Shown here in pieces: positions 45,129 to 49,508 of a DNA stretch of 64,000 nucleotides. Numbering within the stretch: position 1 is the first letter of the stretch; every line of letters starts with the position of its first letter. Under the pieces are notes generated by a model. It worked only from the letters and a program-made list of their open reading frames with translations, was not told the origin of the DNA and ran no database searches. The stretch lies in contig NZ_JADDXW010000005.1 in the NCBI RefSeq assembly GCF_017183135.1, forward strand, positions 124,001 to 188,000, given 5' to 3'. A program made the translations under genes and the position numbers. Origin of the DNA: Aurantimonas marina (GTDB lineage: Bacteria > Pseudomonadota > Alphaproteobacteria > Rhizobiales > Rhizobiaceae).

Positions 45129-47048
45129 ATGATCGGCAGATTGAAACGCGTCCCGGGCCGGTTCGGCCGATTTACGCAATCGCTTGCCGAAGGGGCCGGC
45201 TCCGCAGCGATTCGCTTCCCGGTCGCGACGCTGCTGGTCGTCGCGATCGCAATTGTCTCCAACCTCGCCGTTCGGAACGTCTATCTGCCGAACGAACCCG
45301 ATTTCGTCTGGCTCCTCGCCGCACTTTACGGGGCGGCTGCGAGTTCCGTCGTTGCGGCGATCTTCGCCGAGACTCGGCGCTTGCCCGTGTCAGTACGGGT
45401 TGTCTCGCCGATCGCGGCCGCATTGATCGTCGGACTCGTGATCTGGTTCGGGCCTGACCTTGGTGTCACCGCACCACCCTTGATCCTCGCCGCAACTCTT
45501 GCCGTTCCGCTGGCACCTTATATCGGACGTCACGACGCGTGCCGCTTCTGGGTCTTCTCCCTGGGGACCATCGTCGGCGTCGCGCTGGCGTTTCTGTCGG
45601 TGCTGCTTTTCGTGCTCGGCCTGTCCGCAATTCTGGAAATGATTCGGTTTCTGCTCGATGTCGGACTGCCGAATGACGCCTACGAGCACATCTATGTGAC
45701 CGCCTTCGCCCTGATCGGACCGCTGTTTTCCCTCGGACGTATCCCGCGGGATTTCGACGAGGCAATGCCGGTACCGGGCGATGACCGGCTGATTGCCGGT
45801 GTGCGGATCCTGGTCGACTGGGTGGCGGCACCGCTGGTGTTGGCCACGGCGGTCGTTCTGCATCTCTACGCCGCCAAGATTCTCGTTACGATCGAGGTGC
45901 CGAAAAACGAGATTGGCTGGATCGTCGCCACATTTGCATTTCTCCTGCTGTCGCTTCGGATCGCAAGCGATCCCTTCATCGCGGGCGGGGCGTGGCCCAC
46001 GCGGTTTCTGGCGCGAATCTGGGCGTTCGTCTTGCTCGTCCCACTCGCGCTCCTCTTTTACGCAGTCTCGCTGCGGGTCGCAGCCGAGGGTGTGACGCTG
46101 GAGCGCTACTACCTGGCCCTGGCTGCGGTCGCAGCAGTGATCGTGATCGTGCTGGAGGCCGTGCCACGCGCTCGCGGTGATATCCGTTGGATGGCCGCGG
46201 TTCCGATCGTGCTACTGGCACTGTCGTCATTCGGGCCCTGGGGCGCGGCGAGCACTGTAGGGCGAAGCCAGACCAGCCTGATCGTGACCGAATTCGGCTG
46301 GAGCGGCGCAGCGGTCGGAGCGGGAATCTCAGCGGCCGATCGCCCCGCGAATGCACAGGTCCGGTTGCGCTCGCGTCTTTATGCGCTGGAAGAGGCCGGC
46401 GAACTCGACCGAATTCTGCCCTTTCTCGATCCCGGTGCAGCGGCGCGCTACGCCGAGGCAAAGCGCGGCAGCCCCGGCACGGAAATCAATAGGGTCTTCG
46501 CGGAGCTGGGCTTGGCGGCTCCGTCACAATTGAGCGAGTTTCGCAGCTTCACCGCCAACGCTGGGACCACCGTCGATCTCGCTGGCTTCGATCGCGCGGT
46601 GCTGGAACGCGCTGTAGCGGTCATCGAAGGCGTCGGCGGAGCAAGCCGCGGGGCATCGACGCGCCCAGGCGACGTCGCGCTCGCGATCTCGGGCTCGGAT
46701 CTCACGATCCGGATCGGTACCGTCGAGGATCACGTCGATCTGGCGGCTGCGATCGCCGCTCTCCCCGAATCCGTCTTTGCCACCGATCCCGATCGGTTGG
46801 CGCCACCGGTGCTCGACCTGACCAGCGAAGCCGGGCGTCGGATCCGGCTGGCGCTGCGCCAATTGTCGCTGTCCGGCGCCACCAACGCGATCCTTTCGGG
46901 GACCCTGGCGCTCTACTACCGGGCCGCCGACTGGCCGGCGGAAGCGGTCGAAGCGCCTGCTGGCGCCGCGGCGCAAACGTCACTCGGCGGCGGTGGCGAC
47001 CGAATCGAGCCCGAGCCACGCGGTGTAGTCGGCGAGGGCGCGCGCTGA
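45129..47048 (+). CDS. DUF4153 membrane protein
   Basis: The ~639-residue protein has about eleven predicted membrane segments in its first 400 residues, for example [54 protein letters not shown], with the family feature [15 protein letters not shown] before a soluble C-terminal part. The function of DUF4153 is unknown. Start at 45129 ([13 protein letters not shown]) is preferred; the upstream in-frame start at 45093 has no site. Its last 69 bases overlap the convergent trmFO gene. Confidence 0.8.
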
Positions 47049-48401
47049 CATCGCCTTCTTCTTGGCGATCGCCTTTTCCTTGCCGCGAAATCGCTTCTGG
47101 CCTTCCGGTTTCTGGATCGTGCCGGGGTCGAGCGGCGGGAACAAGCCGAAATTGACGTTCATCGGCTGGAACGAGCGCTTGCCGCCGTCTTCTTCGTGAG
47201 CCAGATGCCCGCCGGTGATGTGAGCGACGAGCGCGCCCATCGCCGTCGTCTGCGGCGGTGGGCTCAATGTCTCGCCGAGCCGCTCAGCGGCCGCGAAACG
47301 CCCGGTCATCAGGCCGACCGCAGCCGATTCGACGTAACCCTCGCAGCCGGTGATCTGGCCGGCGAAGCGCACATGCGGCAAGGCCTTGAGCCGCAGCGTC
47401 GCATCGAGCAGCACCGGCGAGTTGAGATAGGTATTGCGATGCAGGCCGCCCAGTCGGGCGAACTCGGCGTTTTCGAGGCCCGGAATCATTCGGAAGATAT
47501 CGCCCTGGGCGCCGTATTTCAGCTTCGTCTGGAAACCGACGATATTATAGAGCGTGCCGAGGGCATTGTCCTGGCGCAGCTGCACGACCGCATAGGGCTT
47601 GATGTCGGGCTCGTGGGCGTTGGTCAGACCCATCGGCTTCATCGGGCCATGGCGAAGTGTCTCGGGGCCTCGCTCCGCCATCACCTCGATCGGCAGACAA
47701 CCGTCGAAATAGGGCGTGCCTTCCCATTCCTTGAACTCGGTGCGGTCACCCTCGATGAGCGCCGCCACGAAGCGCTCGTAGGTTTCCTTGTCGAGCGGGC
47801 AGTTGATGTAGTCCTTGCCGGTGCCGCCGGGGCCGACCTTGTCGTAGCGCGACTGGAACCAGGCCTTGTCCAGATCGATCGAATCGAAATGGACGATCGG
47901 CGCGATCGCGTCGAAGAAGGCCAGCGCATCCGATCCCGTCGCGGCGCGAATGGACTCGGCCAGGGCGGGCGCTGTCAGCGGACCGGTGGCGACGATGCTG
48001 GGGTCCCACTCCTCGGGCGGCAAACCTTCGACCTCGCCGCGTTCGATTCGGATCAGCGGATGGTCCTCGATCGCCGCGGTGACGGCCTCCGCGAATCCTT
48101 CGCGGTCGACGGCGAGCGCGCTGCCAGCCGGCACCTGATGGGCGTCGGCCGCCCGCATGATCAGCGAGTTCGCCAGACGCATTTCTGCGTGCAGAACGCC
48201 GACGGCGTTGGTTTCGCTGTCGTCCGAGCGAAACGAGTTCGAGCATACCAGTTCTGCCAAGGAATCCGTCTGGTGCGCGTCGGTCCCGCGCACGGGCCGC
48301 ATTTCGTGGAGCACCACCGGGATGCCGCGCTCGGCGATTTGCCATGCGGCCTCTGAGCCGGCGAGCCCGCCGCCGACGACATGAATAGGTTTGTTCGACA
48401 T
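46980..48401 (-). CDS. trmFO: Methylenetetrahydrofolate-tRNA (uracil-5-)-methyltransferase TrmFO
   Basis: The 473-residue flavoprotein methylates U54 of tRNAs with methylene-THF. An FAD-binding Rossmann motif [19 protein letters not shown] opens the protein; other signatures are [38 protein letters not shown] and [16 protein letters not shown]. It converges on the DUF4153 gene with a 69-base tail overlap. The small-RNA array begins about 70 bases upstream of its start, on the same strand. Confidence 0.95.
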
Positions 48402-48470
48402 GGAGAAGATTTAGCAGCCGGTGCGCCGTCCCGAAAGGGCTGGATGGACCGCCATGTGCAGAAACGACGA

Positions 48471-48580
48471 AACCCGCCGGGGGGAGGACCCGACGGGTTT
48501 CAAACGTACCTGCGCTGGGAGGAGGATGCGCAGGCTACAATCCGCATCCGGCCCGGGAGGAGGTGGACCTTCAGCGAAAC
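48471..48580 (-). ncRNA. Cuckoo/CcsR-like small RNA, unit 3
   Basis: It begins with GTTTCGC (48580-48574), 128 bases after that of unit 2. Stem-loops are GGCCC/GGACC (48550-48569, one mismatch), a perfect 7-bp CCTGCGC/GCGCAGG (48509-48534) and AACCCGCCGGG/CCCGACGGGTT (48471-48499, one mismatch). Loops again read CCUCCUCCC, CCUCCUCCC and UCCUCCC. After the last hairpin the RNA strand has TTTCG, a weak terminator at best. trmFO lies downstream. Confidence 0.8.
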
Positions 48581-48595
48581 TTTTGCCTCTCTCAT

Positions 48596-48708
48596 CGGCC
48601 GCCGGGGGGAGGACCCGACGGCCGACCAAGAGATGCCCGCGCTGGGAGGAGGATGCGCAGGCACTTGTCCGCCTCGGGTTCTGGGAGGAGGTGAACCCTT
48701 GGCGAAAC
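48596..48708 (-). ncRNA. Cuckoo/CcsR-like small RNA, unit 2
   Basis: It begins with GTTTCGC (48708-48702), 130 bases after the same element of unit 1. Stem-loops are GGGTTC/GAACCC (48676-48698), GCCCGCGC/GCGCAGGC (48635-48662, one mismatch) and CGGCCGCCGGG/CCCGACGGCCG (48596-48624, one mismatch). Loops read CCUCCUCCC, CCUCCUCCC and UCCUCCC in the RNA sense. Stems differ from unit 1 yet keep pairing, which is compensatory change. Confidence 0.8.
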
Positions 48709-48723
48709 TCTGATCTTCATGGC

Positions 48724-48838
48724 GCCCGCCGGGGGGAGGACCCGGCGGGCGTCTTTGAAAGATCCGCCCCATTCTGGGAGGAAGATGGGCGGACCTTTAT
48801 CCGCTAGGCCCTGGGAGGAGGATGGGCCGTCGCGAAAC
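48724..48838 (-). ncRNA. Cuckoo/CcsR-like small RNA, unit 1
   Basis: The unit begins with GTTTCGC (48838-48832), 20 bases after the DUF1127 stop. It has three stem-loops on the minus strand: GGCCC/GGGCC (48807-48828), TCCGCCC..AT/ATGGGCGGA (48763-48793) and a perfect 10-bp GC stem GCCCGCCGGG/CCCGGCGGGC (48724-48750). Read in the RNA sense the loops show CCUCCUCCC, UUCCUCCC and UCCUCCC, able to pair with Shine-Dalgarno-like GGAGG. The GC hairpin resembles a terminator but has no U-run. Confidence 0.8.
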
Positions 48839-48858
48839 CGAATGGGTCAGGTGGCCGT

Positions 48859-49002
48859 TCAGCCGACCGTGCGGCGAGCGATCGCGCTGATGTCGCCGCG
48901 GGCGATGCCGAGGTCGGTGAGTTCGCGCTGCGACAGACGGCTCAATTCGTTGACCGTCTCGCGGTAGCGGCGCCAGTTGTTGTAAGAGCGGACGATGTTC
49001 AT
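48859..49002 (-). CDS. DUF1127 small Arg-rich protein
   Basis: The 47-residue protein (MNIVRSYNNWRRYRETVNEL, then LSRLSQRELTDLGIARGDI) is a DUF1127 protein. Members bind RNA or interact with metabolic regulators, and in Rhodobacter one stands directly before the CcsR small RNAs. AGGTGAAG precedes the ATG at 49002; the longer open frame runs back into the promoter region. The small-RNA array follows on the same strand after 20 bases, so both may share one transcript. Confidence 0.92.
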   Translation of the reverse strand: MNIVRSYNNWRRYRETVNELSRLSQRELTDLGIARGDISAIARRTVG

Positions 49003-49423
49003 GGTCTTCACCTGGTTGTCTGACTTTAATCGATTGAAGCGGCCCGGTTGATCCCTCAGCGTCGCCTCGTTGACCAGGAAGTTAGGCGGCCGGATCGAAG
49101 GATGCCAGCCGTCCAAACGCATGGCAGCTTTGCAATTTGTGCAACGCAACAAAAATATGGCGCAACACGAGCGAAATCAATATGTTGATGAGAGGATCGG
49201 GACATTCGGTCTCTGCGAGGCGTGCTGCGTGAGCGTTTCGTTAAGCTGCGGTTAAGTATCATGTGAGGCATCAGGCCGCGTCGGTCCTCAATCGGCGTCG
49301 GTCGGCGCTGGTCTTCTCCAAACAGGGTACACGGCCGATTCAAGCCAAATTTGCCCTTTCGTGGCCGGAATGCCGGTGATATAGAGGCGCGCGCCTCGCG
49401 TCGCCCATTGTTCGGCGCACCAT
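49003..49423. other. Promoter region of the DUF1127/small-RNA operon and tRNA-Leu
   Basis: No gene is supported here. The part around 49110-49200 is AT-rich for this genome and carries the inverted repeat listed at 49130-49144. It lies upstream of the DUF1127 start on the minus strand and so probably contains its promoter. The tRNA-Leu promoter should lie just before 49424. Confidence 0.45.
49130..49144. promoter_or_regulatory. LysR-type box upstream of DUF1127
   Basis: TTGCA and TGCAA form a perfect inverted repeat with a 5-base spacer, about 130 bases before the DUF1127 start. The T-N(11-13)-A form is typical of LysR-regulator sites. In Brucella and Agrobacterium the LysR regulators VtlR/LsrB activate DUF1127 genes and a small RNA, which gives the site some meaning. 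No direct evidence. Confidence 0.4.
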
Positions 49424-49508
49424 GCGGGTGTGGCGGAATTGGCAGACGCACTTGGTTTAGGTCCAAGCGCCGAGAGGCATGGGGGTTCAAGTCCCTCCAC
49501 CCGCACCA
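49424..49508 (+). tRNA. tRNA-Leu (UAG)
   Basis: Cloverleaf with acceptor GCGGGTG/CACCCGC, anticodon stem CTTGG/CCAAG around loop TTTAGGT (anticodon TAG), a long variable arm (CGCCGAGAGGCATG) typical of leucine tRNAs, T-arm GGGGGTTCAAGTCCCTC and an encoded CCA. Confidence 0.96.

Follow-up and report, generated by a model that had tools for sequence, protein, structure and literature searches.

The locus lies on a 64-kb stretch of the 4.0-Mb Aurantimonas marina genome, and we refer to this stretch as the window. On its minus strand, an array of three ~129-nt units, each folding into three hairpins, occupies positions 48838-48466, between a small DUF1127 gene and a TrmFO/GidA-family gene. The features, in the direction of the array, are as follows.

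49118..49143, minus strand: candidate LsrB/VtlR-type regulator box TGCACAAATTGCAAAGCTGCCATGCG, a genus-conserved block located 141-116 nt ahead of the DUF1127 start codon.
49080..49108, minus strand: putative core promoter CTGGCA-N17-CTAACT (-35 at 49108-49103, -10 at 49085-49080), read by eye.
48859..49002, minus strand: DUF1127 gene encoding an arginine-rich protein of 47 aa (PF06568, E 4.3e-15), on the same strand as the array and directly upstream of it.
48717..48838, minus strand: αr14 unit 1, folding into hairpins at 48836-48800, 48798-48758, and 48751-48723; RF02344 score 63.3 bits, over the cut-off.
48591..48708, minus strand: αr14 unit 2, folding into hairpins at 48706-48668, 48664-48633, and 48626-48594; RF02344 score 62.8 bits, over the cut-off.
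48466..48580, minus strand: αr14 unit 3, folding into hairpins at 48578-48541, 48538-48506, and 48501-48469; RF02344 score 57.3 bits, 1.5 below the cut-off.
48458..48502, minus strand: intrinsic-terminator-like end, made of hairpin 3 of unit 3 and the tail TCGTTTCTGC.
46980-48401: TrmFO/GidA-family gene (GIDA).

Each unit begins with GTTTCGC (48838, 48708, and 48580 on the minus strand), giving spacings of 130 and 128 nt. The anti-Shine-Dalgarno motif UCCUCCC is present in all nine hairpin loops, with TCCTCCC starting at 48819, 48782, 48740, 48689, 48650, 48613, 48561, 48523, and 48488 (minus strand), and five of the nine carry the full 9-mer CCUCCUCCC. The initial annotation had proposed exactly this layout, with three minus-strand units starting at GTTTCGC, the motif in every loop, and an adjoining DUF1127 gene, and it was borne out in each respect. 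The array's five copies of the DNA 9-mer CCTCCTCCC are the only ones within the window, where 0.67 are expected, and none of 100 dinucleotide shuffles of the window reached at least five. TCCTCCC alone is not rare, occurring 14 times in the window against 10.8 expected, and 18 of 100 shuffles reached 14; the signal therefore is its clustering inside hairpins. Units 1, 2, and 3 fold better than shuffled sequence (z -4.4, -5.6, and -4.1; none of 200 shuffles as good in each case), as does the whole 400 nt of the array (z -7.2; none of 100 shuffles as good). The hairpin-2 loop of unit 1 reads CUUCCUCCC, and its UUC is paired with GAA in the minimum-energy fold, a pairing that may partly hide the motif there. 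The third loops of all three units carry only the 7-mer UCCUCCC and are closed by GGG/CCC.

The array is conserved within the genus. We compared eight genomes, seven relatives and the genome that contains the window, and all eight encode three units downstream of a DUF1127 gene, with UCCUCCC kept in 72 of 72 loops. The DUF1127 protein is 74-96% identical to those of the seven relatives, and among named relatives it is Aurantimonas species that have the closest DUF1127 proteins. When the eight arrays were aligned with plain, structure-blind MAFFT, 95.9% of cells were paired and 25 of 101 pairs had changed on both sides. Neither the paired share nor the double-changed count was matched in any of 500 shuffles, and sliding the partners as a control gave at most seven such pairs; further pair types in this alignment showed no excess (44 versus 45.8 in shuffles). 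Of the third hairpins, that of unit 1 does not vary among the eight genomes and is uninformative on pairing; those of units 2 and 3 each show three double-changed pairs. These data uphold the earlier claim that the stems vary yet stay paired. Among 40 genomes from genus to order level, our own included, an αr14 match at E <= 0.01 was found in 32, and 24 had a match over the cut-off.

To which family do these RNAs belong? The initial annotation had placed them in the cuckoo family (Rhodobacter CcsR, rhizobial αr14 type), which is right, with αr14 favored by the covariance models. Two of the three units pass the Rfam gathering cut-off for αr14 (RF02344, 58.8 bits). The CcsR1 model (RF02791, cut-off 65.3 bits) gave 25.3, 42.2, and 28.3 bits for units 1-3, below the cut-off in all three, and CcsR1 is thereby ruled out as the best family. 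Weak Rfam matches to Rhizobiales-2, 6C, Scr3202, ar7, scr5239, and anti-hemB were likewise rejected, being below cut-off and on the same hairpins. The motif in the third hairpin had been called unusual. This is contradicted by the αr14 Rfam consensus, which shows it in all three loops, and by the family description, in which αr14 members have three hairpins, each with an anti-Shine-Dalgarno motif (PMC10746234). Relatives with three and four hairpins are known, and one family with a varying number of hairpin modules has been suggested (PMC3927594, section 2.7).

Two characterized systems resemble the locus. The αr14 founder, NfeR1/Smr14C2 of Sinorhizobium meliloti, shares the length of ~120 nt, the three motif hairpins, the variable stems, and, in putative form here, an LsrB-type box upstream of the transcript. 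The A. marina locus differs in its tandem set of three units placed behind a DUF1127 gene, in third loops with the 7-mer only, and in a unit 3 that falls just below the cut-off. The ccaF1-CcsR1-4 locus of Rhodobacter sphaeroides (RF02791) shares the small DUF1127 gene, the tandem CCUCCUCCC sRNAs, and the single terminator. However, the CcsR1 model has two hairpins where each unit here has three, and Rhodobacter has an RpoH promoter where we find a putative LysR-type box. The association of such sRNAs with DUF1127 genes, of which the Rhodobacter locus is an example, has been named CIN1 (PMC10253847). The A. marina locus is a DUF1127-αr14/cuckoo (CIN1-type) locus, a kind already described, and its array is real, conserved, and at a genomic site already described for its sRNA family.

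How widespread is this arrangement? We searched with DUF1127 peptide patterns and surveyed the best 80 of 187 named loci. A motif hairpin was present within 900 nt downstream of the DUF1127 gene in 79 of these 80 loci and within 900 nt upstream in two, although the 80 are not independent, as the window's own genus is among them and one genome can contribute several loci, such that Fisher values overstate. Downstream, three hairpins were most frequent (33 loci), followed by four (20), nine (11), two (5), eleven (3), and six (3); 15 hairpins occurred in two loci, and 18, one, and none in one locus each. Nine hairpins, found in 11 of the best 80 loci, are thus not exceptional. The locus with none, in Bartonella queenslandensis, also lacks the regulator box (6 mismatches). 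Array length varies strongly: Fulvimarina manganoxydans (L055) has 15 motif hairpins and five αr14 units over the Rfam cut-off, and Aurantimonas sp. 22II-16-19i (L060) has 18 hairpins and six αr14 units, all below it. An array behind every DUF1127 gene can be ruled out, since two of the three DUF1127 genes in the window's own genome have neither an array nor a good box (best box 5 and 6 mismatches).

Several other arrangements were seen. One distant relative (L030) has four DUF1127-like ORFs in ~1.6 kb with three sub-cut-off αr14 matches between or after them, an arrangement of repeated gene-RNA pairs. The window's own genome also encodes a second cuckoo-type sRNA (L047, G000:C9:29086-29213, minus strand), with relatives in L160, L161, and L162. 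In these four of the five genus loci read, it consists of two CCUCCUCCC/UCCUCCC hairpins and a motif-free terminator hairpin; the fifth (L159) contains no CCUCCUCCC. Its αr14 score is about 30-32 bits, below the cut-off, and in two of the four loci it comes after the end of a gene that reads, by eye, like putA. Finally, a tRNA-Leu lies on the plus strand at 49424-49508, opposite to and upstream of the A. marina locus, and an opposite-strand tRNA precedes the DUF1127 gene in five of nine sources scanned (L055, L058, L060, L064, and L101).

What might switch on the array? The block upstream of the DUF1127 gene resembles both the LsrB box of the NfeR1 promoter, TGCA-N6-GCAT (PMC10746234), and the Brucella VtlR motif, CAATGCAGCCATGCA (PMC12595884). 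Within it, CAAAGCTGCCATGCG has 3 mismatches in 15 positions to the Brucella motif, and by hand count the window copy has 1 mismatch in 7 to the GCAT-N3-TG-N3-T box given in PMC7486931. The genus consensus of the box is matched exactly in five and with one mismatch in three of the eight genomes, a circular comparison because the consensus was built from them. In the window's own genome, the box occurs at <=3 mismatches in four places, against two for the reversed pattern, and the window's is the only exact copy. Across the best 80 of 187 loci, the VtlR 15-mer was found at <=3 mismatches within 250 nt upstream in 65, compared to two of the 80 in a control stretch 650-900 nt upstream (shortened where the contig ends) and 0 of 80 shuffles. 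A composite box reached 68 of 80 versus 0 of 80 in the control, but it was drawn after viewing the family loci, and the 15-mer taken from the published work is the fairer test. Shuffles for the box statistics, for both the genus consensus and the 80-locus survey, were mononucleotide. The 15 loci that exceed 3 mismatches to the 15-mer include those of Aurantimonas endophytica, A. aggregata, and the long-array Fulvimarina.

Downstream of the box, the putative -35 and -10 elements of A. marina often have counterparts, by eye, in relatives, where CTGCAA/CTAGCG-like strings near the same place are followed 17 nt on by TTATAT/CTATAT-like strings. A strict sigma-70 scan of 48400-49250 gave no promoter. 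Closer to the gene, the block GCTTCAATCGATTAAAG (49024-49040, minus strand), which precedes the DUF1127 start, is nearly invariant in all eight genus genomes; the putative DUF1127 5' UTR showed no clear fold (z 0.1).

A candidate regulator is encoded in the same genome. An LsrB-like gene lies directly after trxB, and its best PDB match is 9hh1 at 2.4e-135 (next match 8.1e-34), which is Agrobacterium LsrB (PMC11975290). The same order, with the regulator gene after trxB, is described for Brucella vtlR (PMC12595884) and for Agrobacterium (PMC7486931). LsrB is reported to bind and activate the NfeR1 promoter (PMC10746234), and VtlR to bind the atu1667 promoter; atu1667 has small-protein orthologues in Brucella (PMC7486931), which lie under VtlR and are called DUF1127 proteins (PMC12595884). 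The report on Agrobacterium lists just three directly bound promoters (PMC7486931). The LysR-type box in front of the array suggests, at the level of sequence, how the array is switched on.

On the evidence of sequence and predicted structure, conservation and synteny, family scores, and motif statistics, we consider it very probable that the locus is an LsrB-activated DUF1127-αr14 operon with one transcript that is processed to a DUF1127 mRNA plus three anti-Shine-Dalgarno sRNAs. A single transcript would start at the LsrB/VtlR-type promoter (candidate start near 49073), run through the 47-aa DUF1127 gene and the three αr14 units, and end at hairpin 3 of unit 3. Cutting between the units, probably by RNase E, would then yield the small-protein mRNA and three sRNAs of ~120 nt. 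Each sRNA would expose three anti-Shine-Dalgarno loops able to base-pair at ribosome binding sites of the GGGAGGA type, and this pairing would reduce how well many mRNAs, including those of transport genes, are translated.

Transcription, processing, LsrB control, targets, and a role of the DUF1127 protein in maturation are all drawn here by analogy with relatives. In Rhodobacter, RNase E is described as releasing CcsR1-4 from the ccaF1 transcript together with the DUF1127 protein CcaF1, which helps in the cutting (PMC10253847, PMC8625941), and by that analogy RNase E is the likely nuclease here and GUUUCGC the likely 5' end. Whether DUF1127 proteins bind RNA is disputed (PMC12501420). The three loops of NfeR1 are reported to act redundantly, silencing targets by masking their ribosome sites (PMC10746234). 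Some points count against the operon reading. S. meliloti NfeR1, as tested, has its own promoter (PMC10746234). Moreover, the box is 3 of 15 positions off the Brucella motif, 15 of the 80 loci differ from that motif by more than 3, the -35 and -10 elements are weak and escaped the scan, unit 3 is below the cut-off, and the directly bound promoters listed for Agrobacterium number only three (PMC7486931).

Are the hairpins released at all? They could instead be merely a structured 3' UTR of the DUF1127 mRNA, stabilizing it or binding in cis, and never act in trans as sRNAs. Stable hairpins throughout would suit such a UTR. The sole terminator-like site in 48400-49250 follows unit 3 (0.7 expected in shuffles, so weak alone), with the TCGTTT of its tail invariant in all eight genus genomes. 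This position at the very end suits a UTR and also fits a single processed transcript. Likewise, a scan of 48400-49250 found no promoter-like site between units, although it also missed the proposed promoter. What speaks against a mere UTR is that 72 of 72 hairpin loops are kept and that a Rhodobacter locus with the same layout gives discrete sRNAs (PMC8625941), and we regard this alternative as unlikely.

It is similarly improbable, in our judgment, that an RpoH (heat-shock) promoter drives expression as in Rhodobacter and that the LysR-type box is incidental. The Rhodobacter ccaF1-CcsR operon does have an RpoHI/RpoHII promoter (PMC10253847), and a TTG-N17-CCATAT string can be read by eye at 49180-49155. 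However, that string is complete in only one of seven genus relatives, the closest (G004), whereas the LysR-type block is present in all seven (by eye) and recurs in other genera. The initial annotation had linked the array to stress. That link holds for relatives, but here the upstream block resembles an LsrB/VtlR-type site and not the Rhodobacter RpoHI/RpoHII promoter. That the array is functionless GC-rich repeat noise is scarcely credible: TCCTCCC by itself is not rare in the window, but covariation, conservation, family scores, and clustering contradict it.

Which mRNAs might the sRNAs of the proposed operon reach? GGGAGGA occurs 4-10 nt from an ATG at 97 places in the window's own genome, a list that includes several copies of one repeated string, versus 13 for the reversed pattern. 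We compared the first 30 of these 97 sites with the first 30 of 85 AAGGAGA sites, in contig order, using ORFs of at least 60 codons with predicted starts. By Pfam, transport components made up 8 of 23 ORFs with GGGAGGA-ATG sites and 1 of 25 with AAGGAGA (Fisher p 0.009). The eight matches were Peripla_BP_6, BPD_transp_2, BPD_transp_1, SBP_bac_1, DctM, Peripla_BP_4, NMT1_3, and SBP_bac_3, and the single control component was Form_Nir_trans; one further control ORF (L174), with no Pfam match, reads like part of an ABC ATPase and was not counted. The sample is small, and transporter genes may simply tend to have strong ribosome sites. The 23 GGGAGGA ORFs also include a methenyl-cyclohydrolase (MCH) and a PQQ alcohol dehydrogenase, and C1 metabolism is reportedly modulated by CcsR (PMC8625941). 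AbcR1/AbcR2 are described as sharing anti-Shine-Dalgarno motifs, transporter targets, and, in some species, LsrB/VtlR control (PMC7486931, PMC7143759). However, they are a different family, and there is no Rfam AbcR match at this locus.

What our analysis adds is that, in most of the relatives sampled, the DUF1127 gene is accompanied by both a LysR-type box and an αr14 array, the latter with up to 18 motif hairpins. BAB1_0914 and BAB2_0512 of Brucella and atu1667 of Agrobacterium are, by description, also DUF1127 genes under a VtlR-type box (PMC12595884, PMC7486931). The passages that describe them treat them as small-protein genes and mention no αr14 array, and our comparison is with these descriptions only. 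We tentatively propose, at somewhat less than an even chance, that VtlR/LsrB-activated DUF1127 genes in Brucella, Phyllobacterium, Aurantimonas, and their kin are generally dual operons whose 3' part mostly holds 3 to 18 anti-Shine-Dalgarno hairpins, and that much of what the LysR regulator brings about is exerted through αr14 RNAs, in addition to AbcR. Whether atu1667 acts as protein or RNA has been called unknown (PMC7486931), and the dual-operon reading, if true, would bear on that question. Should LsrB/VtlR indeed drive these arrays, the RNAs may account for part of the phenotypes that have been attributed to the small proteins.
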